From: Styela clava | Taxonomy: Eukaryota; Chordata; Ascidiacea; Stolidobranchia; Styelidae | Reading direction: 5' to 3' | NCBI RefSeq assembly: GCF_964204865.1 | Contig: NC_135252.1 | Coordinates: forward strand, 1,550,001-1,614,000 | DNA length: 64,000 bases | Made by a program: the position numbers and the translations under genes | The notes under the pieces: model-generated | Seen by the model: only the letters and a program-made list of their open reading frames with translations | Database searches by the model: none | Told to the model about the DNA's origin: nothing | Shown here: positions 5,406 to 64,000 of the stretch, in pieces | Numbering within the stretch: the stretch's first letter is position 1 | Layout: every line of letters begins with the position of its first letter

Positions 5406-5462
5406 GCGTAGTGATTTAATTAAAGGTTGGATCAACGGTTGATGCAGTTGTTTTGTCTATGC

Positions 5463-6930: not shown

Positions 6931-7386
6931 TAGGGGTCTCAAACTCAATTTACCTGGGGGCCGCCGAGACGGAGCTTTAGTGAGTCCGGGCCGCATCCGT
7001 TTAAACTTAAAAAGTTAAATATTTTTTACTGTTTTTCTATACGCAAAACATGTTAAAAACATAAATGTAAGTAATTTCGCGATGGACCTTTCCCCGATCA
7101 TCTACTTCCTTGTTTATTCCGCAACATGAGCTAATCAGCAAGACGCAACAAGTGACGTAACAATAGACTTTTTCGCAAATGCTCAGATACTTGTCACTCA
7201 GAAATATTTTCAGGCGTGTTTATAAACATTACCCCGTTTTTGCATGCTATTTGTTAGTTTAGGGTTGTGTTTCAGAAATTCAAGTATGGATCAAAGAACT
7301 CAATGATCATTCTGATTGCTTGGGCGTCGTAGCTTAATTGCCGTAATCAAAAATTAGGCCCGCGGGCCGCGAGTTTGAGACCCCTG
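6931..7386. mobile_element. hAT MITE, 456 bp
   Basis: Terminal repeats taggggtctcaaactc and, on the other strand, caggggtctcaaactc. The 8-bp duplication ctctggaa is at 6923-6930 and 7387-7394. Subterminal GC-rich ggcccgcgggccgc is typical of a widespread animal hAT family. The internal stretch around 7225-7350 is related to 32040-32170 inside the element in the Ig-EGF-ZP array. Confidence 0.9.
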
Positions 7387-7394
7387 CTCTGGAA

Positions 7395-29944: not shown

Positions 29945-30365
29945 TCGGGTGATGCACAACGGTAATTCTATGAAGTTTCAGTAGCTCTTGGCATTTCAAT
30001 AATAACTCATAACTTTGCTGAGATGTAAGTCCTCTGTACATTCACTGAGCAAATACCATAAAAAAGCGATTTCTATATATATATGCAAAGTGCTTCCTTC
30101 CATTGTGTTCTTTGGTTGGGCCAATTTGGTGATTTGGATTGATTTGATTTTATCAAGAACTTTTTCACCATTAATTCTTTTCTGCGTGTTTCATATGTAG
30201 GGGAAAACGGAACCTCATCGCTTTTTCTACCTGTCAATGACGCGAAGGCACGTTGCGGGAATCGGAACTTTTGCTTGTTTTTTTTTGGATATGTGGTAAA
30301 AAGATACGACCTTATAAAAACCTATTTTCTGTTACGACTCCACGTTGTACGCCACAGGTTGCATC
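29945..30365 (+). promoter_or_regulatory. Conserved 5' flank of Ig-EGF-ZP copy 1
   Basis: A block preserved in front of all four array genes (this one, 35690-36095, 48285-48720, 60457-60892). Shared pieces are ctatatatat (TATA-like), agtgcttccttccattg, ggttgggccaatttggtg (CCAAT) and gattttatcaagaactt. Conservation against diverged surroundings, about 250-320 bases before the ATG, suggests the promoter; this is inference. Confidence 0.5.
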
Positions 30366-33300
30366 ATGAATTTTGGTTTTTACAAAATGAGATACTTCTA
30401 TTGCGTTATATTTTCTGCCTTGGTATGTTTTGGAGAATCTTTTGTGCCATTAGAAGAAGGTATGGTATGTATAATTTCATATGCTGTAATTGTTGAAGGC
30501 AAAAACAGTCTGAACACGTGAAGAAACTTTCTTGTTCCATTCATATTTGAAGTTCGCCCAATAAGAAATTAAATGCAGTTATCTATGTATAGTTGTTGAA
30601 TATTTCAGTATGGAAGCTGTGGTCAGTCTGTATCTCAACAATCTATACTTCAGGTTGCCGCATAATGATGGTATCACACGTAAGCAAGTGGTCCTTACTA
30701 AAGGAGAATCTTTGAAATTGGAATTTATTCCATCTGCTGGATCCTGGTCTTATATTCAATGGTAGCATTTTCATTACTTGGTGATGTTAAGCATTTACAT
30801 AAACATACATGTTTTGCTATAACAGTTTCGGGTTCGATCAGGATCAGTGTGCTTCAGAGCAGGGGTCCGCAAATACAGGGTCGCAGCTAGGGCTGGGCAT
30901 ATTCCAATACCTGATGATTTCAGAATCAAATCGAATACTTTTTTCGAATCGAATCTCGAATACTTGGGAGATATGATTGTATGCGATTTTTTTATTGTAA
31001 TTGGTCCTTTCAAAATATGAATTACTGAAAACGTAGAATACATCACTCAGACAGATTGCTGAGCGTTTAAATACAATAAGAAACACGTTTTATCAATAAC
31101 TCACTACAGAAAATAGTCATATGTCAGAAATGCATTGAAAAAATATGGTCCCGATAAAAGTAAATTAAGGTATTCATGTCGACCATTGGCGGTAAAAAAA
31201 ACAATATGGCGGCGATTCGAGATACTGCTCTGAACCGATTCGAATAATTCACTTTTTCCGTGGATCCGAATATTTCAAGAGTGGAGTAGGTAGTGTTTAT
31301 TTCGATTTTCCGTTACAAAAAAAGAAACAAATATACGAAAAATTAGGAAATTGGGCAAAATCTAAAAAAGATTTAAGACGTGCTGATGCACGTGCCCACT
31401 TACCCCAAACAGCAAACAACACAATTGAAGTAAGTTTAAAATAAATACTCAGAATTTAATCCGGTCGTAAATACTTGGGAGTGGATGTGGAATTTGAACA
31501 TAGACTGCAGTTTCTACTATATCTGCACAAGAAAATAACGAGAAGTGTAGAATACAGCAAATAAACAAGCGGTGCGCAATATGTGATAATTAATGTGATT
31601 ATGTGATTACAAAAGCATTCCGCGCTCTGTCGTTCCAACTTCAGTTTTAATCAAAATCCGTGTGCTTTGTGTATTGTGTCTTTTTTATGGAACCCATCAT
31701 CAAATATCCGTTACATTTGATGTTTGACTGTTCATGTTATCCTCAGCTTCGATCAGGTTTCCATGATAAACTTCAGCCATGCTAAAAGCCAGCATGATCT
31801 GATGCGAACTGATCCATATCGTATCGGTACTGCATCTGAAGAAGAACATAGGCTATATACTGTAATTTCGTGTTTTTTCTGATAATTGTTTTTATAGGTG
31901 CCCGTGCACAGAATTCACCAATCACCAGCATTGTTTTGATTTAGGTTTGTAATATCTTCTCAGGAGGATTTATATTTGTCTGGTTTTCCAATAGAAAATC
32001 GCCGTTTCAATGCAACCGGATGGGCGGATGGGCGAATTTCCTCGTTTTCGCGTGCTATTTGTTAGTTTTTAGCTGTGTTTTGGTAAATATACATCTGAAT
32101 CAAATAACTCAATGATCATTTTGTCTTCGTAGAAGTTTTATTTCAATTGCAGTAAACAAAAATTAATCTAGAAATAGCTGTGATGGAATAGGCTAAACTT
32201 TTGTACCGGTACATTCAAATGAAAGGTTGTTGAATTTTTTTAGTCAAAATGATGGTTTGAAACATATAAACGGTTTATAGGCGCCGACTCGTAAAACCAC
32301 TCATGAAATAAGTACCAACAATTTTGCACAGGTAAAGTATATAGGAAAGATTTCCCGGGGATCGAAATTCGAGGAAACTTCCATTACGTAGTTGTTTGCA
32401 TTGTTATTATCCTACTACGTAGTCAATTGTATTGTTCCGTAGCAATGCGAGGTTAGCAGTGGCTGTGTGGAATTGCTTGATAAGACAGATGATGAGATTT
32501 CATGTGCTAAGTTTCATAAAATTTTGTGCAGTAAAATTGCTAGTGTCAATAATAGTCTTAAAATCAATAACTAATTACATGCTTACCAAATGCGTGGGTC
32601 GCGAGAAATTAGGAAAAAAAAAAAAATTGGGGTTGCGCCAAAAAGTAGTTGCGGACCCCTGCTTTAGAGAAACTATTATGATGCCTAAACATAACTATGA
32701 CTTACACCGAAGAAACTTGATATACGATATTAGTATTATATTATTTATATTTTATACTATATTCAGGATAAAACTCCATGAAGAAGGACAACAATTTAAG
32801 CATCTAATTATTCCCGCTAACCAAGCGTTCAACAATGGAAGCGCAGTGATATCTTCAATAGTTTTAGAGAGTGTGACTGGGAGCGATACAGCAAATTACA
32901 GCTGCATTTTAACAACTGCTCTAGTCACTTCATCCACGGAGTTTTTCGCGGCTGTAAAAGGTGAGTTCTGAAACTGTGATGACATATTTAATTTACAAGC
33001 CTAATGATGGCATTATAGTAATTGCTTACATTGTGTTTTTTTTCTAATCAAATAAAGAATTTTGCACCGAAGGTTTGTGCAAACGTATAGATTTGTTGCA
33101 AGAGTACAGTTATTGAATTCGTAAATATTGACAAAATTGCAATTGTAAATCTTGATATAGTACCATACGATTGCAAAAGAGACCTTGTTTTTATAGCCGT
33201 AGCTCAGTAGCTTGAATCATAAGTATAATCTCAGAAATTGGTTGATTTTCCCGGATATCAGTTTTGTAATGTGCGTGTTTTCTTTTTTCAAGTTACTTTT

Positions 33301-33563
33301 ACGATGTTATATTTATATAAATAAAAAACAACGGCTATTTTCACATGACGTAGTTAGGTAGCTGACCCTGAGATTTCTTTGGCGTTTTGATACAAATCTA
33401 TATATCTATCAGAAATTAGTACTTTTGCAGATATAAATGCGAATGTGATGAAAAATGCACTGGGGAAAATGTAGCAAATTGGATACATGTTTTAATAGAC
33501 CATGCTTAAATAATGGATCATGCAGGATCACAGACTACAAGTTTAACTGTTCTTGTTTAGAAG
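30366..33563 (+). pseudogene. Ig-EGF-ZP family copy 1, truncated and broken
   Basis: Remaining exons: signal peptide 30366-30459, Ig first half 30654-30767, Ig second half 32767-32960, EGF1 start about 33055-33117, EGF1/2 33430-33563. Lesions against copies 2 and 3: the 31-bp micro-exon is deleted, so exon 1 joins out of frame. Six bases covering the first Ig cysteine are missing. The EGF1 acceptor is changed from cag to caa. Twelve bases with a cysteine of EGF1 are lost. One base is missing after ACTGGGGAA in the next exon. Nothing downstream (EGF3-6, ZP) exists. The second Ig half (DTANYSC) is still open. A 1.8-kb hAT element sits in the Ig intron. Clearly non-functional as the full protein. 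Confidence 0.9.
30860..32661. mobile_element. hAT-type element, 1.8 kb, in Ig intron of copy 1
   Basis: Ends caggggtccgcaa and its exact reverse complement ttgcggacccctg. Target duplication cttcagag (30852-30859) / ctttagag (32662-32669). The paralogous intron of copy 3 at about 49834-49845 has a single ctttagag and no insert, which is direct evidence of insertion. The internal part 32040-32170 resembles 7225-7350 of the 456-bp MITE. Near the left end, agggctgggcatattcc and repeats of aatcgaatac suggest a second element nested inside. No intact transposase is seen. Confidence 0.92.
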
Positions 33564-34234
33564 GTAAAATTTATCATTTGAATTTTTGAACCACTGTCAT
33601 CGTTTGCAGTTTTCATAAAACGTCTCTAAATTTTTGTTTTTATCCCGACATTAATCCGGGTCACATTTACTTATTTGCGTAATTTTACAACGGCACAGCA
33701 TATTTGAAAACTGATTTTTCAACAAACACATTTTATCAATAGCCCCATATATTGCAATTTAAAAAAAAACATGCTTTGACTGCACGTTTCCAAGATCAGG
33801 TCATGGTTGATAAATTTACATGAGAAGATCAAACCAGCCAACCGTATACATTCAAATTGCAAATTTGCATTGGAAATTGCAGAAATAATGTAGCCTATGT
33901 GATGATTTTCTCTGTAGACTAGTGGTCTTATGAGCAAGCCGTTTTGTGCATGTTTTTTTACAAATCACCCGCGTAATTGCCAGGCTGAAATCCTCGACTG
34001 CTTCCAAAGCAATTGGTCCGGTAGTTCATGAGAGAAGCGATTTTTTCATAACAATAACACCACAATAACAGAACGGTCCATATGTGACACTTCGTGTAAA
34101 AAAATAGATTCGTTGGTGCAAATTCCGCGTTTGCAAATATTCGTGAAATCAAATGTCCGTGGTCCAAATATCTATGAGTAAAATCTGTATGCGGATGCTA
34201 AAATGTGCGAGTGCAAATATAATATGATGGAAAA
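33564..34234. repeat. Array spacer repeat, first part
   Basis: Starts with the intron-like tail that follows the EGF2 exon in copies 2 and 3, then from about 33965 matches 47425-47720 (accacccgcgcaaatgcc type; gcaattggtccagtagttca; caaatatctatgagtaaaat). This shows that the spacer duplicated together with the genes. Confidence 0.65.
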
Positions 34235-36095: not shown

Positions 36096-39000
36096 ATGAA
36101 TTTTGGTTCTTCAAAAATGAGCTACTTCTATTGCGTTATATTTTCTGCCTTGGTATGTTTTGGAGAATCTTCTGTGTCACTAGAAGAAGGTGAGATATAT
36201 ATGTTTATTTTAATATGCTGTAATTGTTGAAGGCAAAAACAGTCTGAACACTTGAAAAAACTTTCTTGTTCCATTCATGTTTGAAGTTCACTCAATAAGA
36301 AATTAAATGCAGTTATCTACGTATAGTTGTTGAATATTTCAGTATGGAAGCTGTGGTCGGTCTGTAATAACTTATATATATAATTCTTTACACTAGATTC
36401 AGAGATACCAAATATACATCAAGCGCGGTGAGTCTTTTTTTTTTAATAACAATTTTGTCTTCTTTCTGCGATTTCCTATACTATATCATATCTCTATAGT
36501 CTTATATGAGAACTTATCGCACAACCGAATTTACTTGTATAAATTTTACAACAGTCAATTTTTCAGGTTGCCGCATAATGATGGTATCACACGTGAGCAA
36601 GTGGTCCTTACTAAAGGAGAATCTTTGAAATTGGAATGTGAATTTTATCCATCTGTTGGATCCTGGTCTTATATTCAATGGTAGCATTTTCATTTCTTGG
36701 TGATGTTAAAGCATTTACATAACCTTAAATATTCTCTAACAAATTAAAACATTGCCTAAAAATCCTTGAAGGTGGAACTTCTCTTAATTTATATAACTAT
36801 AAATTACACCGAAGAAACTTGATATATGTTTTTATCATTCATCCAATTTCCAGGATAAAGCTCCATGAAGAAGAACAACAATTCAAGCATTCAATTATTC
36901 CCGCCAACCAAACATTCAACAATGGAAGCGCAGTGATATCTTCAATAGTTTTAGAGAGTGTGACTGGGAGCGATACAGCAAATTACAGCTGCATTTTCAC
37001 AACTGCTCTAGTCACTTCATCTATGGAGTTTTTCGTGGCAGTAAAAGGTGAGTTCTGAAACTGTGATTACATATTTAATTCACAAGTCTAATGATGGCAA
37101 TATACTAATTCCAAAGATTATGTTTTGTTTTCTAATCAGATAAAGAATTTTGTACCGAAAGTTTGTGCAAACCTCATGGACAATGTATAGAACTGTTGCA
37201 AGGGTACAGTTATTGAATTCGTGAATATTGGCAAACTTGCAATTGGAATTTTGGTATAATGTTCAAGCCGGCCGAATGAAAGCTTATTACAAAATATTCA
37301 ACCATTCTGGCTGTAGTATATGGTTCTATCTATATATTATATTACATAATCCGCGCGTAGACAATTCTTAGTAAAAAATCATCCTACTTAATATACGCTT
37401 CACTTTTTCAAATTTCAAATTATATTTGTTGAATTCAACGTAATTTTTTGTTATATCTGTCCGACACCGATATGTAGCTGGGGAAGAACACGCTGTTTTT
37501 GTGGCACTACAGATAGGGTCGCAAAAGCGGCCTTGTGATTATAACCGTACCTCAGTGGCTGGAATTATAAGTATATAATCTCATAAATTGGTTCAATTCC
37601 GGAGATCAGTTATGTAATGTGCGTTTGGCGTGTTTTAAGTTTCTATTATTTTACAATGTTATTATTATATAAATAAAAAACAACGGTTTTCTATTTTCAC
37701 ATGAGGTAAAGTGGTACGTAGTTGACCTGAGCTATCTTTGGCGTTTTGATACAAGTCTACATATCTCTCAGAAATTGAATCTTTTTGCAGATATAAATGC
37801 GAATGTGATGACGAATACACTGGGAAAGAATGTAGCATATTGGATACATGTTTTGATAGCCCATGCCTGAATAATGGATCATGCATGATCACAGACTACG
37901 GATTCAACTGTTCTTGTTTAGAAGGTAGAATTTATCATTTCAATTTTTGAACCAATGTCTTTGTTTGCAGTTTTCATAAAACGTTTTTACATTTTTGTTT
38001 TACAAATATTTCACCCAGACATCAACCAAGGCCACATTGACATATCTGTGTAACTTTAAAACGGCACAGTATATTTGAGAACTGATTTTTCAACAAACAC
38101 ATTTTACCAATAGCTTCAGATATTGCAATTTAAAATAAATTTACATGAGGAGATTAACTCAGCTAACCCGTATACATTCAAATCGCAAATATGCATTGAA
38201 AATTGCACAAACATTGTATATATGTAATGATTTTCTCTGTAGACTAGCGGGATTATAAGCACGCATGTTTTGTGCATGTTTTTTGCTGATTCGTCTTCAA
38301 ATGTACAAGTACAATACTCCTGAAAATCACATTACATTGATTTAGATTATATTAGAGTTTAGATATACGTATATTGAGAGAAGTAAAATTGCTTTATGGA
38401 TTTATTTGCTTATAATTATATGATTGACCCACTAATGACTGATTAGAGTTGTAGGAAAACTCTTGTTTCTGCAGAAAACGACTATTGCATCATATAATCG
38501 GCATAAATTGCTTAGAGGCTTTTTAACTCAAATAAATACGATAGAATATATATATTGTATTAGGTTTTTATTATAATAATAAAAATAGCGGAACCCATAA
38601 AAACGTAAAAATTTCGTGGATATGATATTTCGATTTCCATGGATAAAATATTTCGATTTCCTGTTGTAGATTTTCATTAGGACATGATACAATACAATGG
38701 TGCAATAATGATATGATAACGATCACAGTATGATCGAAAGCAGGAAATAGTTGAGTTACAACAATAAAATTTACTTATTAACCTTATAATTTGACATTTT
38801 CGATCGAAGGTTTTAAAGGAAAAACGTGTGAGAAAGAAGCTTGCCTGGCGTCAAGCTGTTATGGAGGAGGAAGTTGTCGAGAAACAAATGGCGGAAAAAT
38901 CAAATGCGACTGTCGATACAATCGTGCAGGAAAATATTGCGAACATGCTTGTTCATTCAGTAATTACAAGGTACTGATTTCTAACTAAAAATAAATCGTT

Positions 39001-42000
39001 TTTCTTTGGAAACATGATGTCTACTGATAAAATCATACGCATGGAAATATATTAAGTTGCTAGTAGTATATGATAAATAAAGGCGTATATTAAAAGTTAA
39101 TCATACTTTACAATTCGATTTTTTCAATTTGTTGTTTTAATTCAGAGTTTTATAATAGTCAGTTAACCTCATACCATCCTTATTTTTAACTCTTGCGTTT
39201 TACAAAATAACTTACAAATAATTATGCTGTGTTCTTATTTTGTCTTGTTTTCATTTATATGAAAAACTTGACATTAATTTTAAACATTGACGATACTTAC
39301 ATAATAGCGTTAATTTTTATTATTATGTGTAATATGACGGATTGTCATCCGTCTTTGAATCGAGTGTTTAATTTTGCATCAATTATGCTATCACTGAATA
39401 CTAATTGAGATATGCATTTCAGTTTAAATGTGACCCAAAAAAGGAGGGTCATGGATTTTTAGAAAAAAAAAATGATTTAGCCTACACTAATCTGGGTTGT
39501 AAATCTAACGTTCTAACGAAAGATTATCTTACTGTCTTCCAAGCGTAATTTGTTTATAAACTATTTGCAAATTTTGAGGAGTACAAATTGAAAAGCGCTG
39601 TCCCAAGTAGACTGAGTTTCGCAAATAGATTCATTCTAAGCTGAAAAGTTGCTAGAACTAAACATGTGCATCGAAACATCGAAAATGCCGTGTTCCGCTT
39701 GTCCCACAGTCGTTCCACGTTCTCCTATTCTTCGATTTTCTAAATCGTCGTTGTTGTTTTGGTATTGTTGGAATCCTTGGCTTTCCTTCGCAACTGCCGG
39801 ACCTTTCAATTTCAAACTAATTTTCAATACTTGAAAGCGAAAGAAGTCACTGGAAGGCGATACTTTTACCGTTTTCGGAGGATTACGGGGTCAGATATTT
39901 CACCAAAATATTGCTGTTTTATTTTAATTCGCGAGAGAACTTGTTGGTTTATGCCTTGTTTGTTTATGCTCTGTGTTGTCCATATGTTCGAGCACGGCTT
40001 TCTAAATGCGGTTTATTAAAATACCAAGAGCTTATTTCCACTGATATTTATCGCTGAAATGTTACTATGTTTTTTGCTCAGTGTCTTGCATTGAAATATT
40101 AAATATTGATGACATTAATTGAAATGGATACAATTCTGATATTTATTGTAACATAGTTTTTTGAAATCTCTTTCCACAGAGATGATCGTTCTTCGTCTTT
40201 TTAAATATAGAACTCTAGATTTTTATATAATAAACAATAATACACATGAAATTATTTTATACTTTAGTTCCACTACAGAAACTATTATTGCTCTCGATCG
40301 AAAACTTGTGTGATTGGTGCTGACGATGGAGTTGAAAAGTGCTATTGTGAAGAGCGCGGATCAGGGACTCACTGCATTATGTCATCTGGTATCCCGTATT
40401 TTATAAAACATAGCATTAGGATGGATTAAGCTAAGTCACATTTTATTCTTCAAGCCGAATAAATATACTTGTTTAATTTGAAGTTGACCAAACAGTTTGA
40501 CTTCTTTTTACGTAGAGCCTAAAAAAACATAATCTTTACCAAATCATCAATTTGTCTTTATTTCACAAGTTTCAAAGCACTGGGTAGTGGGTATTATAAC
40601 ATATCGCGCATATAATTTTTTTTTAATGATTTTTAAAAGCATTGCAGTGACACAACAGAATTGACTCTACTCATACAGTTCTCGAAAAAAAATAGTTGAT
40701 GTTAACTCAACGCATAATCGTACATATCTGTAATCTGCTTTTTTAAAACAATGTTTGCGTGCAGCCTACAGAGGTTAGCCATGTAACTGAAACTATTTCA
40801 TTTTGATTACTTTCTTTATGTCACCCAGAATTCCATCATGATTATAGCGATTCAATTATATGGACGTTCATTACCGTGATAGAAGTATTATACTTCTGGA
40901 TATATATTTTTTTTAGATGTTACGAACGAATGCCTAGAACCGAATATTTGTAATGGCCGTGGTACCTGCTACGACCTAACGTACAAATATTCCTGCGACT
41001 GTCATAGTTATGCATCTGGGACTAACTGCGAATTTTTTAACGAATGTGATACCTCTAACGTGAGTTTTTTCGAATTTTTCATATTTAACCCTGCTAAAAC
41101 GCTTAACTAGCATTCGTTCCTTTGCATCCTTGCCGTTATTGCCTATGTTTTACAACATACCGGTGCTCATGAAAAATTATAATTTTTTCTTTCCATACAA
41201 AAAAAATAAAGTAATAATTTTTATAATTTTATGGATATATTTTAGACTTATATTTGTTATGTTATATGTTATATTCAGGAGCAAATACCTGTTTATTGTA
41301 AATTGTAAATTTTACGTATAATCGTATAGTTTCTCATTGTTTATACAGCTTTGTCATCGATATGGAGGGACATGCGTTGATTTAGTACAGGGGTACAAGT
41401 GTACCGACTGTCCAAGGGGTCAGACTGGCGACAAATGTCAATATATGAAAAGTAGGTATTACGGCACTTTAAACATATGGATAGGCAGTATACAGAGTAT
41501 TTATTCTTCTCGCATACATCAATATGTGGTCAGTTTTAGTTTATGATATAGGAATTTAAAATTTGATTGCCCATCTATGCGTATGGTTTTGACATACCAT
41601 TCTCAATTAGACGCCCTAATCATGAAATTGTGAGATAATAATATGGGGTCGAATATGTAGAACGCACCAATAAAATTTGGTATGCTAAACCAACTTTTAT
41701 TGAGCCTATTTCTAGTTTTTGGGTAAAACGTCTTTAGTTTTGCTGCTATTATGAATGAATAAGCTTATATAATATATTTATCCCTTTTTTTCATTTAAAT
41801 TTGATTCAGTTATTACTAAAAGAAAATTTTCTATCAATGTTTGCTTGCATAGATCCGTGCAAAGTTACATGTGGGCAATCCTCTATGGACTTTAAATGTT
41901 ACATGAAATTTTTGAATTCTAAACTCCAAAAGATACCGATTTATCTAAATTTACAAACCGAAAATTGTGAATTCAAATCTCGATACGGCTATTCGTCTGA

Positions 42001-45000
42001 CGTGGTAACAAAATCTATTACATACAATGAGTGTGGAACCAAAATAGCGGTAAGAAGTTTTTGATTGACTGACTAAAGTAAGAATCTTTTCGTCAGCAAA
42101 TCCCAATATATGTTTTACAGCATGATGGAGACACAATTATTTATAGTAATTCTTTGCGAGCCGGCATTTTTGGAAATAAGGAAGAAGAGAATGATGTAAT
42201 TACCAGATTGGTAGGAAATTTTCGAGTAAGTTGACTGACATACATTAATTTATTGAACTGGTTTTGAAAATTTTAAATATAAAACAAGAGAAAGTGAACA
42301 TTACCGCTTCAAAATGTCAAAGTAGCGTACATGAATAAAAAAAACACGTGATTTAGATTCTATGAGAAGGGCTGTGCAAGTTTTACTTGAGTTCAAACAT
42401 GTTATAAAACATTGCATCAAGATTCAGTATGCACGATTCTTTTACATCAAGAGTTGAGGCCTGAATAGTTTACTCATTTATATCATTTCCAATCACCAAA
42501 TGTAGAATATAAATATATATAAACCAGTGGACCTATAATATAAATATGGTAAACTTCAATATTGTCTCATTGATTTCAATTAACAAAATCTATAAATCAT
42601 TAAAAATGAAATACTGTGCATTCGTGTTTTTCCTACAAGTACATTCATGCACAAGAATATTTGTATTAATTAACATAACAAATCATATATTCAAGTTTGA
42701 CATGGAATGCAGAATTCCGATAGTTTACAACGATACTTCAGCCATGATAAAAGATTATTCACTTGAAAGAAACGAATCAATTCATCTTCACGACGAACGA
42801 AAAGTAACTTTGTCAACGCTCGTTGCTTTTAAAAAGTATAAAAATGCTACTATTTGCTTTCGTTTATTACCTAGTGCTACTTTTTTACTCAATCATGTGA
42901 CTATTCACAAAATTTGTAATTTTCACTTGTAACAATAACGAAGTCAAATTGAGTCAAGTGCAATAGTTAATAAAATTTATGCAATATATTGTAGAATTTT
43001 TCTTGTGATTTGGAAAACTAGAAAAATTTGGAAACATTAGTTTCAACGAGCTGCTAAATTTGAAGTAATTGATAATATATTTTTATGTATTTCAATTACT
43101 GCAGTTAAACAACATATATATACTGTTTATTTTTTAGCCGTGATTGGAACTCGATCACAAAATATAATGTGGGAGACCGGCTCTATGTGGAAGTGAGTCT
43201 CTATATACTTAAATATAACAAACCCACGAACAGATACCCGAAATTTATACTTTGTTATATTAATAGAGTTTGGTCAAAAACGCAATATTTTGCAATTCGA
43301 TGGGCTCCGCCTACAATTTTCATGAGAGTATTAGATTTAAGAATACTTAAACTACATTGTGCATGATGGGGCCTACACTGATTACGATATCCTGATATTT
43401 GAATGTCGCTGCTGACGGATCGGTGCTAAACTTTGGTTATAGTGAAATTTTACTGTATAGCATTATCCAACATACAACTAAACTGTGAGATGCCGGAGAT
43501 TACTCAACATTTGAAAATGAGTTTTACTGAAAAAGAATTAGAGAGCTTAGAGAGAATTTTTGATATACAGTATAATTATTTGGCACGCTCCACTATATAT
43601 TCATTTTGTTTGTTCGTTTTTACATCATAGCTTGTCCTGCAAACGTCAAACCCAATTTTGTCACAAAATGGTGTTTTAAAACCAACCACGTGTTATGCGA
43701 CTCCTGCGAATGCGAACCTCGTTACGTCCTGCTAGAAAATGGGTGAGAATAAATTAAATTTTTCGAAATTAGAATAACTGAAATAAAATGTGGAAATAAT
43801 AAACAATTGTGGAGTTTTTAATAGCACATATTGAAGTGAAATCAAATATTTTAAAAAAATTACTAATTGAAAATTGTAATTTTCTTAATACATTTTAACG
43901 ATTGTTTGTTTTTGTATATAGATGTATAAGAGATAAAACATTCAGATATGAACAAAGGAACTCAAGAAGATCAGAAAACAATCGATTTGCTTATTTCAGT
44001 TTTGATTCATTTTCTTTCAAAGGAGAACGTGGTAAGGTACGATAGAACAGTTTCAATTTTGAATAATAGCAATCAGTAAAAATGTAAAAAAAAGGGTTAA
44101 AACACATGTGCGGATGTGCCAAGTTGCATTTAGAATATTTACTTGATGTAATACAATATACCACCAACAAAACTACTGTATTCTTGTTTGTTTACATGAC
44201 CGAAAGACAAATACATTGTATATAACCGGGAACTAAATATAAGTTAGTTCCTGATGTATTGCATGTGTTAGGTACAAATAGTGGTATATCCTAGCAAAAT
44301 CTGTTGCATAACACGGCGCCACAATATTATTGTTTTTTGAAAAACCTTGTTTATTGATTGATATTATGTTTAATGCAGCTTTACCTGCACTGTAATGCTC
44401 GGCTTTGCATTAACCGAACGAGTGGAGGGGAAGATTTCAGTTTTGAAGAATGCATGAATATATGCTCCGAGCAAAAGGTTTTTAGAACATTTTATTCAAT
44501 ACTTTTTTCTTTAGATAATTACTGTTACGTTATTTATTTATTATAATATAGTCAGCGATGGCACAGTGGTACGAACGATGAACTTACCACGCTTGCATCC
44601 CTTGTTCGACAAGTTTTTCACAACCTAAAGCAATTTTGCGATATGATGCGTGTGTCATCGAATATTGAAATTCCGGGTTCTAACTTCGTTTTCATACTTG
44701 TATCGAGAATGTACAATATTGGATAAGCAATGCCGAACAGGAAAGTAGTAGTAGCTCTTGTCATGCAGTAGCTTGTTGTACAGACCCGTGTTTGGGGAGA
44801 ATTATAGGTAAAATCTCTTCAAAATAATGAATAAAATGGGTCGGCAATGCTAAGCCAAAAGGATTACCGGACTCTCTAAAAACAGTAGGTTCGTACGTCA
44901 TAAATTCTCTCATCTAGAGTTGTAATAGCAGTGAACGCCACATAAACACGGTCGTTAATATAATATGTAAGTAGGGTGGGGTAAGTCGGACCCCTGGAAT

Positions 45001-48720: not shown

Positions 48721-51700
48721 ATGGATTTTAGTTCATCAAAAATGGGATACTTCTATTGCATTATATTTTTTGCCTTGGTATGTTTCGGAGAATCTTCTGT
48801 GTCATTAGAAGAAGGTGGGATATGAATATTTTTAAATGCTGTAATTGTTCAAGTCAAAAATAATTTGCACATGTAAAGAAACGTGATTGTTCTAGTCAGT
48901 AAGTTTGACATTCGCTCAAAATTTGAAGCAGCTACCCATACCCATGTATAGTTTTTGATTTTTCAAGATGTGTAAGTTGGTCGGTTCTGTAATAACTAAT
49001 ATAAGCTGATTCTTTATACCAGATTCAGAGATACCATATATGCATCAAGCGCGGTGAGTCATTTTCGTTTAATAACAAAAGTAATCAGTTGATTTGATTT
49101 TGCGCTTATATATTTCTCTTTGGGCGAACCTGGAATACTATATCAGGCTGCCCCAACGGCCTTATCGTTAGTCAATCCGAAAGGGATAAATAATAGGTAC
49201 AAGAGGATTCTGGACATCTTCGGGTTGCAAAGTTGCCGCGTAGCCAGCCGATGGTCGCCTATTTTTCTCAACACCATCCGATTGCACATGCAATTGTCCT
49301 TATCCGACATGGACTGGTAACCGAACTAAAAGTTGTGACGATTGAGCCGTCGTATTAAATTTTGTCTCCTGGCGATTTCCTATAATATATTATATCTCTA
49401 TAGTCTTATAAGAGAACTTTTTGCAAAACCGAATTAAATTAAATGTTTAAGTTTTAAAACAATCTACCTTTCAGGTTGCCGCATGATGATGGTATCACAC
49501 GTGACCAGGTGGTCCTTACTAAAGGAGAATCTTTAAAATTGGAGTGTGAATTTTATCCATCTGCTGGATCCTGGTCTTATATTCAATGGTAGCATTTTAC
49601 TTCCTTGGTGATGTTAAGCATTCACATCACCGTAAATATTCCTTAACAAATTAACACATTGTCTTAGAATCCTTAGCAGGCGGAACCTCGCTTAGCGCTA
49701 GATGATTCAACTTAATGAAACTCGTTAAATATTCATACTAATTAAAACAGGTTTATTGATAAATACAAATGATTAATAGCTTTGCTTGTTTTGCTATAAA
49801 AGTTTCGGGTTCGATCAGGATTAGTGTGCTTTAGAGGAACTATAACTCATGGTGCTTAAATGTGACCTATAACTTACACCGAAGAAACTTAATATACGTT
49901 TTTATCATTCATCCATATTTTCAGGATAAAACTTCATGAAGATGGACAACAATTTAAGCATTCAATTATTCCCGCTAACCATACATTTAACAATGGAAGC
50001 GCAGTGATATCTTCAATAGTTTTAGAGAGTGTGACTGGGAGCGATACAGCAAATTACAGCTGCATTTTAACAACTGCTCTAGTCACTTCATCTATGGAGT
50101 TTTTCGTGGCAGTAAAAGGCGAGTTATTTAGAAATTGTGATAACATATTTAATTCACAAGCCTAATGATGACATTGTACTAATTGAATATATTATGTTTT
50201 TTTCTAATCAGATAAAGAATTTTGCACCGAAGGTTTGTGCAAGCCTCATGGACGATGTATAGAACTGTTGCGAGGGTACAGTCATTGAATTCATAAATAT
50301 TGGCAAATTTGAAATTGGAATTCTTGGTATATTGTTTGAGCCGGCCGAATGAAAGATATTTATTAACTATTTAACCATTCTGGCTGTAGTACATAGTCAT
50401 ATGATATCTGTATCATATTGCATATTCGCGCGTAGACACTTCTTAAAAAATCATCTTACTTAGTATGCTTTGATTTTGCTGCGAAAATGTCAAATTCTAT
50501 TTGTTGAATTCAACGTAATTTTTCGTTATATCTAACCTATCCGACACCGCTATGTAACTGAGGAAAGACAAGCTGGTTTTGTGGCACTACAGTAGTAAAT
50601 GGTCGCAAAAGCGGCCATGTTTTCTATAGCCAGCCGTACCTCAGTGGCTGGAATTATAAGTATATAATCTCATAAATTGGTTCAATTCCGGAGATCAGTT
50701 ATGTAATGTGCGTTGGGCGTTTTTCAAGTTTCTATTATTTTACGATGTTATTATCATATAAATAAAAAACAACGGTAGTTATGCTGTTATACGTTGTTGA
50801 CCTGAGCTTTTTTTGGCGTTTTGATAGAAATCTAGATATCTATCAGAAAATAACAGTTTTGCAGATATAAATGCGAATGTGATGACGAATACACTGGGGA
50901 AGAATGTGGCATATTGGATACATGTTTTGATAGACCATGCCTAAATAATGGATCATGCATGATCACAGACTACGGATTCAACTGCTCTTGTTCAGAAGGT
51001 AGAATTTATCATTTCAATTTTTGGACCAATGTCATTGTTTGCAGTTTTCATAAAACGACTGTGAATTTTTGTTTTACAAATATTTCACCTCGAAATTAAC
51101 CCAGGTCACATTGACATATTTGTGCAACCTCAAGACGGCACAGCATATTTTAGAACTGATTTTTAAACAAACCCATATTATCAATAGCTTCAGATATTTA
51201 ATTTTTTTAAACACGATTTGACTGCACGTTTCCAAAATCATGAGGGGATCAAATCCACCAATCGCCTGCATTCAAATCGCAAACTTGTATTAAAAACTTG
51301 ATTAATAATGTGTGTGCTGCTTTTCTCTGTAAATTAGCGGTATTATGAGCAAGCCGTTTTGTTGCATGGTTTTTTGCTGATTTGCCCTCAAAGTTACAAT
51401 ACTTTTGAAAATCACAATGGATTGATTTAGATTATATTAGAGGTTATATATACGCTTTCAAATTTACAATATTTTTGAAAATCACAATAGATTGATTTAG
51501 ATTATATTAGAGGTTATATATACGCCTTCAAAGTTACAATATTTTTGAAAATCACAATAGATTGATTTAGATTATATTAGAGATTATATCTACGTATATT
51601 GAGGAAAGTAATGTTGTTTTATGTATTTATTTCATTAAAATTGTTATACGATTGATCGACTAATGCCTGATTGGAATTTAAAAAAGACTCTTGTTTCTGC

Positions 51701-54700
51701 TGAAAACGACTGTTCCATCATATAATCGATCTCAATTGCTTAGACTTTGTATTTCCAGTAAATACGAAAATGAAATATAATGAATATATGATAAAGAAAA
51801 TAGTGAAACCCATATTTACTGGATAGGATATTTTGATTTCCAACCATTTCACTGCAGTCGAAAGTCTACTAAAATGGCGACACCAACAAGATAATGGAGC
51901 AATATTTATATGATAACGATCACAGTATGATAGAAAGCAGGAAATAGTTGAGTAACTACAATAAAACTGCCTTATTAACCTTACATTTTGACATTTTCGA
52001 TTAAAGGTTTTAAAGGAAAAACGTGTGAGAGACAAGTTTGCATGGAGGCAAGCTGTAATGGAGGAGGAAGTTGTCGAGAAACAAGTGACGGAAAAATCAA
52101 ATGTGACTGTCGATACAATCGTGCAGGAAAATATTGCGAACATGCTTGTTCATTCAGTAGATCTAAGGTACTGATTTCTAACTAAAAATATATCGTTTCT
52201 CTTGATAAAAAAAGGTTGTCCGCTAATAAAATCAAATGCATGGAAATATTTAGTTCCTACCAATACGCTAGTTGTATAGGATAAAGGCGTATATTAACGT
52301 TAACGTCCGGTCACTCTCGAGATTTAAAGTCAGTGACATCCATACCGTCCTTGTTTTTAACACTTGTGTTTTACAAAATAATTTTGTCCCCATCTTGTAA
52401 ACTTGTTTTGAGCCGTGTGCTCATTTTGTGTTATTTCCATTTACAAGATAAACTTGACATTAATGTAATGTTGAAAACCAGATGCACATTAACGATTCTG
52501 AGATATTAGCCTTGATTTTTGTTATTATGTGTAATGTGACGGATTGTCATCCGCCGTCGAAACGAGTGTTTATTTGTTGCATGAATTATGCTATCATGCT
52601 ACTGAACACTAATTGAGATATTTATTTTAAATTGAATGAGCCGATGAAAGACCTGCTTATATGTTAACTGAAATTAATTAGAATATTTGATAATGACATT
52701 AATCAAAATAGATACAATTCTGGTATTTATTATAACAAACTTTTTGAAATCTCTTTTCACAGAGTTGATACTACTTCGTTTTTTGTTATTCTTTTTTTAT
52801 CTACAACTCTGGAATTTTCATTAATAAACAATAATGCAGATGGAATTTTTTATACTTCCTAAATAGTTCCAACACGGAGACTCTTATTGCTATCGAGCGA
52901 AAACTTGTGTGATTGGTGCTGGCGATGGAATTGAAAGGTGCAGATGTGACAATCGCGGATCAGGGACTCACTGCATTATGTCATCTGGTATCCTGAATTT
53001 TATAAAACATAGCATTAGGATGGATTGAGCTAAATCACCTTTTATTCTTGAAAACGACTAACTATACTTGTTTAATTTGAAGTTGACCAGACAGCTTGAC
53101 ATTTTTTTTATGTAGATCACCTTGAGACCATAAGCTGTACAACCATCCAATTGTCTTTATTTCACACATGTTTGTAATCACCGGGTATCATAACACACAC
53201 ATAAGGTATTGACTCCATTCGTACAGTTCCTGAGAAAAATTAGTAATATATAATCGTACATATATATCTCAAATATGCTGTTTTTTGAAACAATGTTTGC
53301 GTGTAGCTATCGGAGGTTATCCATGTAACTAACACTATTTCAATATAACCAACCTTGAATATAATCATCTGAACATGTAAAATTACCTTGATGCAAGTCT
53401 GGATTTGGACTTTTGGATATTTTTTTTTCAGATGTAAGAAACGAATGCCTAGAACCGAATATTTGTAGTGGCCGTGGTACTTGCTACGACCTAACTGACA
53501 AATATTTTTGCGACTGTCATAGTTATGCATCTGGAACTAACTGCGAGTTTTTTAACGAATGTGGTACCTCTAACGTGAGTTATTTCGAATTTTTCCATAT
53601 TTAACTAGCATTTTTTCCATACAATGTAATAATTTTCGAAATTTTATGGATATATTTTGAACTTATATTTGCTATGTTATATGTTATATTCAAAAGCAAA
53701 TAACGATTTGTTGTAAATCGTAAATTTTACGTAATCGTATAGTTTCTTATTGTTTATACAGCTTTGTCAACGATATGGAGGGACATGCGTTGATTTAGTG
53801 CAGGGGTACAAGTGTACCCGCTGTCCGAGTGGTCAGACTGGCGACAAATGTCAATATATGAAAAGTGGGTATTACGGCACTTCCAACATATGGATAGGCA
53901 GTATACAGAATATTTATTGTTTTCTCATACATCAATATGTTGTCAGTTTTAGTTTATGATATATGAATTTAAATTTGATTGCCCATCTATGCGTATGCTT
54001 TTGACATACCATTCTCAATTAGACCCCCTAATGATGAAATTGTGAGATAATAATATGGGGTCGAATATGTAGAACGCACCAATAAAATTTGGTATGCTAA
54101 ACCAACTTTTATTGAGCCTATTTCCAGTTTTTGGATAAAACGTCTTTAGTTTTGCTGCTATTATGAATGAATAAGCTTATATAATATATTTATCCCTTTT
54201 TTTCATTTAAATTTGATTCAGTTATTACTAAAAGAAAATTTTCTATCAATGTTTGCTTGCATAGATCCGTGCAAAGTTACATGTGGGCAATCCTCTATGG
54301 ACTTTAAATGTTACATGAAATTTTTGAATTCTAAACTCCAAAAGATACCGATTTATCTAAATTTACAAACCGAAAATTGTGAATTCAAATCTCGATACGG
54401 CTATTCGTCTGACGTGGTAACAAAATCTATTACATACAATGAGTGTGGAACCAAAATAGCGGTAAGAAGTTTTTGATTGACTGACTAAAGTAAGAATCTT
54501 TTCGTCAGCAAATCCCAATATATGTTTTACAGCATGATGGAGACACAATTATTTATAGTAATTCTTTGCGAGCCGGCATTTTTGGAAATAAGGAAGAAGA
54601 GAATGATGTAATTACCAGATTGGTAGGAAATTTTCGAGTAAGTTGACTGACATACATTAATTTATTGAACTGGTTTTGAAAATTTTAAATATAAAACAAG

Positions 54701-57700
54701 AGAAAGTGAACATTACCGCTTCAAAATGTCAAAGTAGCGTACGTGAACAAAAAAAAACGTGATTTAGATTTTATGAGAAGGGCTGTGCAAGTTTTACTTG
54801 AGTTCAAACATGTTATAAAATATTGCATCAAGATTCAGAATGCACGATCCTTTTACATCAAGAGTTGAGGCCTGAATAATGTAATCATTTTTATTCATTT
54901 CCAATCACCAAATGTATAATATAAATATATATAAACCAGTGGACCTATAATATAAATATGGTAAACTTCAATATTGTCTCATTGATTTCAATTAACAAAA
55001 TCTATAAATCATTAAAAATGAAATACTGTGCATTCGTGTTTTTCCTACAAGTACATTCATGCACAAGAATATTTGTATTAATTAACATAACAAATCCTAT
55101 ATTCAAGTTTGACATGGAATGCAGAATTCCGATAGTTTACAACGATACTTCAGCCATGATAAAAGATTATTCACTTGAAAGAAACGAATCAATTCATCTT
55201 CACGACGAACGAAAAGTAACCTTGTCAATGCTCGTTGCTTTTAAAAAGTATAAAAATGATACTATTTGCTTTCGTTTATTACCTAGTGCTACTTTTTTAC
55301 TCAATCACGTGACTATTCACAAAATTTGCAATTTTTACTTGCAACAATAACGAAGTCATATTGAGTCAAGTGCAATAGTTAATAAAATTCATGCAATATA
55401 TTGTAGAACTTTTTTATGATTTGGAAAACTAGAAAAATTTGAAAACATTAGTTTGAACGAGCTGCTAAATTTGAAGTAATTGATAATATATTTTTATATA
55501 TTTCAATTACTGCAGTTTAACAACATATATATACTATTTATTTTTTAGCCGTGATTGGAACTCGATCACAAAATATAATGTGGGAGACCGGCTCTATGTG
55601 GAAGTGAGTCTCTATATACTTAAATATAACAAACCCACGAACAGATACCCGAAATTTATACTTTGTTATATTAATAGAGTTTGGTCAAAAACGCAATATT
55701 TTGCAATTCGATGGGCTCCGCCTACAATTTTCATGAGAGTATTAGATTTAAGAATACTTAAACTACATTGTGCATGATGGGGCCTACACTGATTACGATA
55801 TCCTGATATTTGAATGTCGCTGCTGACGGATCGGTGCTAAACTTTGGTTATAGTGAAATTTTACTGTATAGCATTATCCAACATACAACTAAACTGTGAG
55901 ATGCCGGAGATTACTCAACATTTGAAAATGAGTTTTACTGAAAAAGAATTAGAGAGCTTAGAGAGAATTTTTGATATACAGTATAATTATTTGGCACGCT
56001 CCACTATATATTCATTTTGTTTGTTCGTTTTTACATCATAGCTTGTCCTGCAAACGTCAAACCCAATTTTGTCACAAAATGGTGTTTTAAAACCAACCAC
56101 GTGTTATGCGACTCCTGCGAATGCGAACCTCGTTACGTCCTGCTAGAAAATGGGTGAGAATATATTAAATTTTTCGAAATTAGAATAACTGAAATAAAAT
56201 GTGGAAATAATAAACAATTGTGGAGTTTTTAATAGCACATATTGAAGTGAAATCAAATATTTTAAAAAAATTACTAATTGAAAATTGTAATTTTCTTAAT
56301 ACATTTTAACGATTGTTTGTTTTTGTATATAGATGTATAAGAGATAAAACATTCAGATATGAACAAAGGAACTCAAGAAGATCAGAAAACAATCGATTTG
56401 CTTATTTCAGTTTTGATTCATTTTCTTTCAAAGGAGAACGTGGTAAGGTACGATAGAACAGTTTCAATTTTGAATAATAGCAATCAGTAAAAATGTAAAA
56501 AAAAGGGTTAAAACACATGTGCGGATGTGCCAAGTTGCATTTAGAATATTTACTTGATGTAATACAATATACCACCAACAAAACTACTGTATTCTTGTTT
56601 GTTTACATGACCGAAAGACAAATACATTGTATATAACCGGGAACTAAATATAAGTTAGTTCCTGATGTATTGCATGTGTTAGGTACAAATAGTGGTATAT
56701 CCTAGCAAAATCTGTTGCATAACACGGCGCCACAATATTATTGTTTTTTGAAAAACCTTGTTTATTGATTGATATTATGTTTAATGCAGCTTTACCTGCA
56801 CTGTAATGCTCGGCTTTGCATTAACCGAACGAGTGGAGGGGAAGATTTCAGTTTTGAAGAATGCATGAATATATGCTCCGAGCAAAAGGTTTTTAGAACA
56901 TTTTATTCAATACTTTTTTCTTTAGATAATTACTGTTACGTTATTTATTTATTATAATATAGTCAGCGATGGCACAGTGGTACGAACGATGAACTTACCA
57001 CGCTTGCATCCCTTGTTCGACAAGTTTTTCACAACCTAAAGCAATTTTGCGATATGATGCGTGTGTCATCGAATATTGAAATTCCGGGTTCTAACTTCGT
57101 TTTCATACTTGTATCGAGAATGTACAATATTGGATAAGCAATGCCGAACAGGAAAGTAGTAGTAGCTCTTGTCATGCAGTAGCTTGTTGTACAGACCCGT
57201 GTTTGGGGAGAATTATAGGTAAAATCTCTTCAAAATAATGAATAAAATGGGTCGGCAATGCTAAGCCAAAAGGATTACCGGACTCTCTAAAAACAGTAGG
57301 TTCGTACGTCATAAATTCTCTCATCTAGAGTTGTAATAGCAGTGAACGCCACATAAACACGGTCGTTAATATAATATGTAAGTAGGGTGGGGTAAGTCGG
57401 ACCCCTGGAATATGATGGACAGGCAAAATCAAATCCTTCTGATAGTGACACCTCGCGTTTTTTCGTCGCCCAAAACGCATGGCGTGAAAGAGCGACATCA
57501 TGCGAATAACGACAGAACCGACATTTTTCAAAATAGTCCGTTGGGAATGTCAATGGGCCTTTGTCATCGAGACTTGTTGATAAGTATTTCTTGGTACTAA
57601 GTACTCTTTTACAACACGGATTAAAAGCACTCTCATCGCCATATTTATACTGGGTCTTCTAGAAGTTGGGTCCGGCCTAAAATCTCATCTTACCCCATCC

Positions 57701-60892: not shown

Positions 60893-63800
60893 ATGGATTT
60901 TAGTTCATCAAAAATGGGATACTTCTATTGCATTATATTTTTTGCCTTGGTATGTTTCGGAGAATCTTCTGTGTCATTAGAAGAAGGTGGGATATGAATA
61001 TTTTTAAATGCTGTAATTGTTCAAGTCAAAAATAATTTGCACATGTAAAGAAACGTGATTGTTCTAGTCAGTAAGTTTGACATTCGCTCAAAATTTGAAG
61101 CAGCTACTCATACCCATGTATAGTTTTTGATTTTTCAAGATGTGTAAGTTGGTCGGTTCTGTAATAACTAATATAAGCTGATTCTTTATACCAGATTCAG
61201 AGATACCATATATGCATCAAGCGCGGTGAGTCATTTTCGTTTAATAACAAAAGTAATCAGTTGATTTGATTTTGCGCTTATATATTTCTCTTTGGGCGAA
61301 CCTGGAATACTATATCAGGCTGCCCCAACGGCCTTATCGTTAGTCAATCCGAAAGGGATAAATAATAGGTACAAGAGGATTCTGGACATCTTCGGGTTGC
61401 AAAGTTGCCGCGTAGCCAGCCGATGGTCGCCTATTTTTCTCAACACCATCCGATTGCACATGCAATTGTCCTTATCCGACATGGACTGGTAACCGAACTA
61501 AAAGTTGTGACGATTGAGCCGTCGTATTAAATTTTGTCTCCTGGCGATTTCCTATAATATATTATATCTCTATAGTCTTATAAGAGAACTTTTTGCAAAA
61601 CCGAATTAAATTAAATGTTTAAGTTTTAAAACAATCTACCTTTCAGGTTGCCGCATGATGATGGTATCACACGTGACCAGGTGGTCCTTACTAAAGGAGA
61701 ATCTTTAAAATTGGAGTGTGAATTTTATCCATCTGCTGGATCCTGGTCTTATATTCAATGGTAGCATTTTACTTCCTTGGTGATGTTAAGCATTCACATC
61801 ACCGTAAATATTCCTTAACAAATTAACACATTGTCTTAGAATCCTTAGCAGGCGGAACCTCGCTTAGCGCTAGATGATTCAACTTAATGAAACTCGTTAA
61901 ATATTCATACTAATTAAAACAGGTTTATTGATAAATACAAATGATTAATAGCTTTGCTTGTTTTGCTATAAAAGTTTCGGGTTCGATCAGGATTAGTGTG
62001 CTTTAGAGGAACTATAACTCATGGTGCTTAAATGTGACCTATAACTTACACCGAAGAAACTTAATATACGTTTTTATCATTCATCCATATTTTCAGGATA
62101 AAACTTCATGAAGATGGACAACAATTTAAGCATTCAATTATTCCCGCTAACCATACATTTAACAATGGAAGCGCAGTAATATCTTCAATAGTTTTAGAGA
62201 GTGTGACTGGGAGCGATACAGCAAATTACAGCTGCATTTTAACAACTGCTCTAGTCACTTCATCTATGGAGTTTTTCGTGGCAGTAAAAGGCGAGTTATT
62301 TAGAAATTGTGATAACATATTTAATTCACAAGCCTAATGATGACATTGTACTAATTGAATATATTATGTTTTTTTCTAATCAGATAAAGAATTTTGCACC
62401 GAAGGGTTGTGCAAGCCTCATGGACGATGTATAGAACTGTTGCGAGGGTACAGTCATTGAATTCATAAATATTGGCAAATTTGAAATTGGAATTCTTGGT
62501 ATATTGTTTGAGCCGGCCGAATGAAAGATATTTATTAACTATTTAACCATTCTGGCTGTAGTACATAGTCATATGATATCTGTATCATATTGCATATTCG
62601 CGCGTAGACACTTCTTAAAAAATCATCTTACTTAGTATGCTTTGATTTTGCTTCGAAAATGTCAAATTCTATTTGTTGAATTCAACGTAATTTTTCGTTA
62701 TATCTAACCTATCCGACACCGCTATGTAACTGAGGAAAGACAAGCTGGTTTTGTGGCACTACAGTAGTAAATGGTCGCAAAAGCGGCCATGTTTTCTATA
62801 GCCAGCCGTACCTCAGTGGCTGGAATTATAAGTATATAATCTCATAAATTGGTTCAATTCCGGAGATCAGTTATGTAATGTGCGTTGGGCGTTTTTCAAG
62901 TTTCTATTATTTTACGATGTTATTATCATATAAATAAAAAACAACGGTAGTTATGCTGTTATACGTTGTTGACCTGAGCTTTTTTTGGCGTTTTGATAGA
63001 AATCTAGATATCTATCAGAAAATAACAGTTTTGCAGATATAAATGCGAATGTGATGACGAATACACTGGGGAAGAATGTGGCATATTGGATACATGTTTT
63101 GATAGACCATGCCTAAATAATGGATCATGCATGATCACAGACTACGGATTCAACTGCTCTTGTTCAGAAGGTAGAATTTATCATTTCAATTTTTGGACCA
63201 ATGTCATTGTTTGCAGTTTTCATAAAACGACTGTGAATTTTTGTTTTACAAATATTTCACCTCGAAATTAACCCAGGTCACATTGACATATTTGTGCAAC
63301 CTCAAGACGGCACAGCATATTTTAGAACTGATTTTTAAACAAACCCATATTATCAATAGCTTCAGATATTTAATTTTTTTAAACACGATTTGACTGCACG
63401 TTTCCAAAATCATGAGGGGATCAAATCCACCAATCGCCTGCATTCAAATCGCAAACTTGTATTAAAAACTTGATTAATAATGTGTGTGCTGCTTTTCTCT
63501 GTAAATTAGCGGTATTATGAGCAAGCCGTTTTGTTGCATGGTTTTTTGCTGATTTGCCCTCAAAGTTACAATACTTTTGAAAATCACAATGGATTGATTT
63601 AGATTATATTAGAGGTTATATATACGCTTTCAAATTTACAATATTTTTGAAAATCACAATAGATTGATTTAGATTATATTAGAGGTTATATATACGCCTT
63701 CAAAGTTACAATATTTTTGAAAATCACAATAGATTGATTTAGATTATATTAGAGATTATATCTACGTATATTGAGGAAAGTAATGTTGTTTTATGTATTT

Positions 63801-64000
63801 ATTTCATTAAAATTGTTATACGATTGATCGACTAATGCCTGATTGGAATTTAAAAAAGACTCTTGTTTCTGCTGAAAACGACTGTTCCATCATATAATCG
63901 ATCTCAATTGCTTAGACTTTGTATTTCCAGTAAATACGAAAATGAAATATAATGAATATATGATAAAGAAAATAGTGAAACCCATATTTACTGGATAGGA
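60893..64000 (+). CDS. Ig-EGF-ZP secreted protein, copy 4 (5' part, runs off window)
   Basis: Visible exons: 60893-60986, 61195-61225, 61647-61760, 62097-62290, 62384-62447, 63037-63170, covering signal peptide, Ig domain, EGF1 and the start of EGF2. By the constant offset to copy 3, exon 7 should begin at about base 64179, outside the window. The encoded protein is the same as copy 3 in this part; the few base differences I see in exons are silent (for example GTG/GTA in exon 4 and GGT/GGG in exon 5). It shares the GC donor after exon 4 and the intron 2 insert with copy 3. Whether its ZP half is intact cannot be seen here. Confidence 0.85.
63561..63770. repeat. Three tandem 70-bp units in intron 6 of copy 4
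   Basis: Same three-unit array as 51389-51598, at an offset of 12172. Confidence 0.9.

Follow-up and report, generated by a model that had tools for sequence, protein, structure and literature searches.

The 64,000-nucleotide window analysed here (bases 1550001-1614000 of Styela clava contig NC_135252.1, hereafter C3) holds much of a tandem family of tunicate genes, consisting of copies 1 to 5 (c1-c5), to which a distant paralogue (c6) some 12 Mb off can be added. Splice sites, reading frame and Pfam matches gave a modelled protein in which a signal peptide precedes a single Ig domain, followed by six EGF modules and then the ZP module, and judging from these domains the encoded protein is probably secreted. 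A sequence-only reading of the window had compared c2 with c3 and proposed diversifying selection on two neighbouring modules, EGF3 and EGF4. Two more copies, c4 and c5, occur downstream of that pair, and the window contains only the front of c4; the stretch of 114 kb that was analysed contains no N.

The copy 2 gene lies at 36096-44477 on the plus strand, as do copies 1, 3 and 4 and the exons below. Its signal peptide (judged by eye), short second exon, Ig domain and first part of EGF1 were modelled at 36096-37203 from splice sites and frame, with exons IgA at 36567-36680, IgB at 36854-37047 and the first part of EGF1 at 37140-37203. The Pfam score of the Ig domain was weak (Ig_3, E 1e-4, under the model's curated cut-off). 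The remainder of EGF1 and EGF2 follow at 37791-37924 (splice sites, frame, Pfam). With cysteines assigned by spacing, exon EGF3 (38810-38970) supplies the final Cys of EGF2, the six of EGF3 and the first of EGF4, and exon EGF4 (40268-40388) carries the other five Cys of EGF4. Exon EGF5 (40917-41059) belongs to a divergent block and exon EGF6 (41349-41451) to a transition zone. The ZP module (exons ZP1-ZP7, 41853-44477) matched ZP-N at 4e-9 and ZP-C at 7e-12 when the pieces before and after a frame break in ZP5 (43631-43742, 112 bp) were searched separately.

Copy 3 (48721-56888) is a hybrid gene with a c4-type front, a c2-type back and the same ZP5 defect as c2; alignment to copy 2 and splice sites placed its exons EGF3 and EGF4 at 52007-52167 and 52867-52987. 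The front part of copy 4 fills 60893-64000, and its modelled exons run on to C3:1619091, open through ZP7. Copy 5 lies downstream of it, outside the window, at C3:1623345-1636582. Copy 1 (30046-33959) is a degenerate front half, from signal peptide to EGF2, for which EGF3 or later exons were not found, and it looks like a dead relic; its EGF1/2 match has 133 bases instead of 134, and its IgA match 108 bases. The donor of the IgB exon is GC in c3 (50119-50120), c4 and c5 and GT in c2. Both c3 (51384-51594) and c4 (63556-63766) have a triplicated 70-bp unit in the EGF2-EGF3 intron. The ZP4-ZP5 intron of copy 5 is about 4.2 kb longer than that of c2-c4 (between 81081 and 85726 in coordinates of the extended window).

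An exon search of the genome at DNA level (376.6 Mb, 379 contigs) found four EGF3 and four EGF4 loci and no further copies of either. Protein-level searches gave 32 matches in one case and at least 117 in another (150 of 427 candidates scored); among the matches listed outside the array, c6 alone was recovered with Ig as well as EGF and ZP pieces, and the rest were weak EGF-type matches. Relatives were not found in viral contigs, and a mitochondrial COX1 search, meant to place the species, gave no match. The exons of c6 matched from Ig to ZP7 at C3:13.847-13.855 Mb, weakly for IgA (E 0.09). Its EGF6-like match carries an in-frame TAA (C3:13851030-13851146), and an inverted EGF3-like copy lies nearby (C3:13851890-13852030).

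Exons EGF3 and EGF4 of c2 aligned end to end and ungapped with those of c3, and their AG/GT splice sites were intact in both genes. The codon counts of the sequence-only reading were reproduced exactly, with 11 non-synonymous and one synonymous changed codons of 53 in EGF3, 13 and none of 40 in EGF4, and eight and seven in EGF5 and EGF6 together (5 + 5 and 3 + 2, respectively). The ZP exons, described there as nearly invariant, differed by one non-synonymous and one synonymous codon over all seven, and the cysteines, described as kept, were unchanged at all 13 codons (chance P = 0.015, given 24 of 93 codons changed). Expressed as Nei-Gojobori substitutions, non-synonymous and synonymous respectively, c2 and c3 differed by 12 and 2 in EGF3, 16 and 0 in EGF4, 7 and 8 in Ig, 7 and 4 in EGF1-2, 5 and 7 in EGF5, and 4 and 2 in EGF6; for EGF5, non-synonymous divergence (dN) was 0.046 and synonymous divergence (dS) 0.306. 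Permuting synonymous and non-synonymous labels over exons, with counts rounded to whole changes, gave a scan-corrected P of 0.0007 for the best adjacent pair among the ten exons from signal peptide to EGF6. In c4-c5, the ratio of replacement to silent changes in EGF3+4 was likewise unlike that of the other exons (scan-corrected P = 0.0027).

Introns served as the control for these counts. Between c2 and c3, introns from Ig to EGF5 differed by 14-25%, or up to 32% on realignment, and those beside EGF3 and EGF4 by 20-32%, whereas introns from EGF6 on differed by 0-5%, four of the seven by less than 1%. Expressed as divergence K, ZP introns gave 0-0.05, similar to the ZP exons, and introns beside EGF3/4 gave 0.24-0.30 (0.24-0.41 realigned); these values depend on alignment, as the EGF3-EGF4 intron gave 0.26 in one and 0.41 in another. 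The source of the contrast was found in c3 itself. Its front differed from c4 at 6 of 8229 columns, and three mismatches were counted at 41.06-43.2 kb (copy 2 scale). Its back, at 43.2-45.0 kb on the same scale, had one mismatch to c2, while c4 differed there by 3-26 per 200-bp bin. The switch was placed at 43100-43400 in copy 2, which corresponds to roughly 55.5-55.8 kb of copy 3.

A front matching one neighbour, a back matching the other and a single switch point are the characteristics of an unequal-crossover hybrid, and the order c2, hybrid, c4 is that predicted by one unequal crossover of c4 with c2 between sister or homologous chromosomes. An error of assembly, in which c3 and c4 duplicate a single locus or are two haplotypes placed in tandem, would account for fronts with only those six differing columns. 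We regard this as improbable, since the backs of the two genes differ (ZP5 84% identical, with c2, which equals c3 there, as query; introns 6-13%), the gene order with its single switch fits unequal crossing-over, and the stretch is free of N. Given that c2 and c4 were already 95-100% alike from 41.6 to 43.2 kb (copy 2 scale), the invariance of the ZP exons follows from a young crossover and this pre-existing similarity and not from constraint, the ZP introns being equally invariant. Thus, it was largely recombination, not selection, that set the divergent EGF3-EGF5 exons apart from the invariant ZP exons. Codon comparison of tandem copies can mimic a selection hotspot when recombination gives exons different ages, and introns provide the control.

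A second mosaic was seen between c3 and c5. Differences amounted to 96 of 3474 positions (2.8%) up to 38.95 kb, 186 of 1409 (13.2%) at 38.95-41.05 kb, 16 of 398 (4.0%) at EGF6 and 205 of 1311 (15.6%) beyond, which delimits a divergence island at 38950-41050 (copy 2 coordinates). The four blocks were heterogeneous (chi-square P = 7e-66, with borders set after viewing the sliding table). This rise and fall, introns included, would be expected if the block from the end of EGF3 to EGF5 had been imported by conversion into c3/c4 (or c5) from an unsampled allele or a lost paralogue, without selection. Neutral import should, however, carry silent differences with it, and EGF4 showed none against 14 replacements in c4-c5; nor did the genome-wide DNA-level search find a fifth EGF4 locus. 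We consider import without selection unlikely, though a serious candidate.

The pair compared in the sequence-only reading turned out to be two genes with a damaged tail. ZP5 is 112 bp long in c2 and c3 and 119 bp in c4 and c5, a deficit of 7 bp, and the frame of c2 and c3 meets a stop in ZP5, inside the ZP module, while c4 and c5 stay open to the end of ZP7. A disrupted reading frame is a mark of pseudogenes, and from the sequence c2 and c3 may be either recent pseudogenes or soluble forms ending within the ZP module. The shared damage does not in itself explain EGF4, because the EGF3 and EGF4 encoded by c4 are those of c3 and the c4-c5 pattern is alike. Neutral drift since the frame break was rejected: the same EGF4 pattern appears in c4 and c5, whose frames stay open through ZP7, and the Ig exons retain a dN/dS ratio (omega) of 0.25.

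Selection was examined with Nei-Gojobori dN/dS and with our own codon-likelihood code (GY94 type with F3x4 and kappa set to 2.84, on a three-sequence star). Copy 1 was excluded from rate tests, as was ZP5 where copies differ in its length, and ZP6-7 stand outside the ZP totals for c2-c5 and c3-c5. With P values uncorrected for the nine exon groups tested, omega exceeded 1 in EGF4 (P = 0.003 pairwise, 0.017 with three genes) but not in EGF3 (P = 0.46 and 0.70), so that the proposed selection on two modules found partial support, for EGF4 only. For c2-c3, EGF3+4 had 28 replacement to 2 silent changes against 23 to 21 in Ig and EGF1, 2, 5 and 6 (Fisher P = 0.0002), and omega differed between the two groups (P = 0.0003). 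In c4-c5, EGF4 had 14 replacements and no silent change, and EGF3 6 and 2. The Fisher contrast with the other EGF and Ig exons was weaker in c3-c5 (P = 0.095) and c2-c5 (P = 0.054), with dN 0.073 and dS 0.065 for EGF3+4 in the latter; against ZP1-4, c3-c5 gave P = 0.0096.

Diversifying selection on EGF3 and EGF4 together, as recognition surfaces that selection keeps pushing to change, would be consistent with an EGF3+4 omega of 4.35 in c2-c3 (P = 0.016 pairwise), the significant EGF4 value, the retained cysteines, the clustering of changes (below) and the recurrence of the EGF4 pattern in c4-c5. It would also recall the ascidian egg-coat proteins HrVC70 and HaVC80, whose variable sites are placed in EGF loops and linkers (PMC9265791). 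With three genes, however, the EGF3+4 value weakened to P = 0.063, and EGF3 alone was not above 1. On none of the three branches did EGF3 reach the intron rate, and against c6 its dN of 0.22-0.23 was among the two lowest of ten exons (the c6 comparison spans ten of 17). EGF4, at 0.27-0.32, ranked third to seventh lowest, and IgB, EGF5 and ZP1 reached 0.40-0.43; neither EGF3 nor EGF4 being fast, there was no long-term hotspot. Selection on both modules seems quite unlikely. Taken singly, positive selection is in our judgement improbable for EGF3 and for EGF4 a little short of an even chance.

Calibration against flanking introns gave a more sober picture. The intron clock for c2-c3 gave EGF3 an omega of 0.43-0.67 (not significantly above 1), and the lowest P for any pairwise EGF3 or EGF4 value above 1 was 0.055. 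For EGF3+4 in c4-c5 the verdict depends on the assumed intron divergence, omega being 1.96 (P = 0.008) if K is taken as 0.05, 0.98 for 0.10 and 0.57 (P = 0.008) for 0.171. Relative to the adjoining introns, EGF4 evolved at about the neutral rate and EGF3 below it.

The EGF4 changes were unevenly distributed over the three-gene star. Eleven replacements fell on the c3 side, four on c2 and two on c5, with no silent change on any branch and one site different in all. The c3-side share, 11 of 17 assigned sites, exceeded that in the introns on either side (53 of 264, P = 0.00016) and in the near intron flanks (16 of 71, P = 0.002). Changes on c2 and c5 together (6 of 121) were far under the intron rate (211 of 974, P = 1.6e-6), and EGF4 of c2 and c5 is thus strongly constrained. 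Changed residues clustered within a 14-residue window spanning the EGF3/EGF4 exon junction (nine in c2-c3, P = 0.027; eight in c4-c5, P = 0.011; seven in c2-c5, P = 0.019). Of the 15 residues changed in the EGF4 module, we counted 12 on the alignment in the interval from its first to its fourth Cys.

These data bear on whether constraint was simply relaxed, EGF4 and perhaps EGF3 having become dispensable in one lineage, with the lack of silent changes due to chance and exon-sized conversion. An EGF4 rate close to that of its introns and the broken ZP5 of c2 and c3 are what relaxation would produce, and the binomial P for no silent change among 16 is just 0.013, uncorrected. On the other side, c4 encodes the EGF3 and EGF4 of c3 yet is open through ZP7, none of the 13 Cys codons changed, and EGF4 of c2 and c5 is constrained as described. 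Relaxation only is a possible explanation, if a rather doubtful one.

The explanation we favour, and hold to be reasonably likely, is a tandem array of mosaic age with an amino-acid-replacing phase at EGF4. The array would evolve through unequal crossing-over and, we infer, gene conversion, which together give every stretch of each gene its own age. Copy 3 arose very recently, when a crossover joined a c4-type front to a c2-type back, as its sharp switch shows. The EGF4 exon and the nearest part of the EGF3 exon, above all the Cys1-Cys4 loops of EGF4, would have passed through a replacing phase, by positive selection or loss of constraint, that chiefly separates c3/c4 from c2/c5, and the EGF3 differences would reflect ordinary weak constraint in an old block. 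In the protein, the ZP part would build a filament or coat with the EGF/Ig part facing outwards, and EGF4 may be a ligand-contact module differing between copies.

Several results weigh against this explanation. The binomial deficit of silent changes in EGF3+4 was weak in c4-c5 (P = 0.079) and absent in c2-c5 (P = 0.31), and intron-clock omega for EGF4, 0.76-1.38 in c2-c3 and 1.05-1.79 in c4-c5, was not significantly above 1. Of six branch-by-exon tests, only that of EGF4 on c3 put replacements above the intron rate (2.15-fold, P = 0.022); in the remaining five they were at 0.22-0.57-fold. Silent changes in EGF3+4 were short relative to introns (likelihood-ratio test P = 0.006 at K 0.15 and 5e-5 at K 0.25); the excess rests on this scarcity, for which short exon-sized conversions are a candidate cause. 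Constraint on synonymous sites by splicing or RNA signals was not favoured, silent sites of EGF3 and EGF4 being saturated against c6, with dS not computable. At the 11 c3-side EGF4 sites, c6 has the c3 base at four, the c2/c5 base at six and another at one. Finally, the near-identity of c3 and c4 may be an assembly error, and function and secretion are read from domains; a simple hydropathy scan covering about 2 kb past ZP7 in c2-c5 detected no membrane segment.

After intron control, a single EGF exon of a tunicate EGF-ZP protein still stands out, all its changes being replacements, and this makes EGF4 a concrete candidate for a self/nonself or gamete-recognition site. A more far-reaching version, to which we give little credence, is that EGF4, built across the EGF3/EGF4 exon junction, acts as a recognition cassette. 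Selection would keep the EGF3-EGF5 blocks distinct and drive replacements in the Cys1-Cys4 loops, while crossing-over and conversion homogenise the scaffold. Crossovers like that of c3 would then attach a specificity already present to another ZP tail, in c3 a truncated one, so that a matrix-bound form becomes soluble.

Among known systems, the vitelline coat proteins of Halocynthia (HrVC70/HrVC120, HaVC80) share a tunicate EGF array with C-terminal ZP, recognised here by Pfam EGF, ZP-N and ZP-C. Their variable sites are found in linkers and in the Cys 3-4 interval, in HaVC80 also between Cys 1-2 (PMC9265791), and the paralogue differences of c2-c5 fall in comparable EGF loops. The resemblance to HrVC70/HaVC80 in position of variable zones suggests likeness, not membership. 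HrVC70/HrVC120 have 12-13 EGF after the signal peptide and no other domain (for HrVC120, 12 EGF and one incomplete, with no Ig named in PMC9265791), unlike the weakly scoring Ig and six EGF found here. That family is also characterised by gonad expression, a place in the vitelline coat and polymorphism between individuals at restricted EGF sites, while the variation described here is between tandem paralogues of one assembly. CiVC57, which belongs to a set of 11 ZP proteins in the Ciona vitelline coat, also combines EGF repeats with ZP in a tunicate but differs in its von Willebrand domain, its transmembrane part and its number of EGF repeats, 24 (PMC8849226).

Botryllus FuHC-sec is likewise a secreted EGF-bearing tunicate protein with reported positive selection, but it has two EGF domains, and the word zona is absent from that text (PMC3691228). 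Against solved structures, the ZP module of c4 matched only uromodulin and GP2 (6 sequences, best E 3.5e-8), vertebrate ZP proteins that are alike in the ZP part. The front half of uromodulin and GP2 is unlike that of the array genes. In the gibbon L/M opsin pair, conversion likewise homogenises tandem genes but spares the places where a difference is important (PMC3213168); exons outdiverge introns there, whereas block introns here diverge as much or more. Judged from titles and the starts of abstracts, an Ig-EGF-ZP family is not described in any of the open-licence PMC papers listed.

The consensus for O-fucosylation, C2xxGG(S/T)C3, is given in PMC9265791. A sequence fitting it, CYGGGSC or CNGGGSC, is kept in EGF3 of c2 (38857-38877), c3, c4 and c5; the c6 counterpart reads CHYGGGNC.

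Elsewhere in the window, 1-10818 contains three related stretches of short-chain dehydrogenase type, one with a 331-aa open frame on the minus strand (2845-3840, Pfam adh_short 2.7e-42). A fusion of cellulose synthase and GH6 is a mark of tunicates, and the genome analysed here fits it. In this genome, a GH6 exon was detected at C9:16179895 (E 1.5e-6, above cut-off), and directly upstream, on one strand, cellulose-synthase-like glycosyltransferase exons with QRSRW were read by eye.

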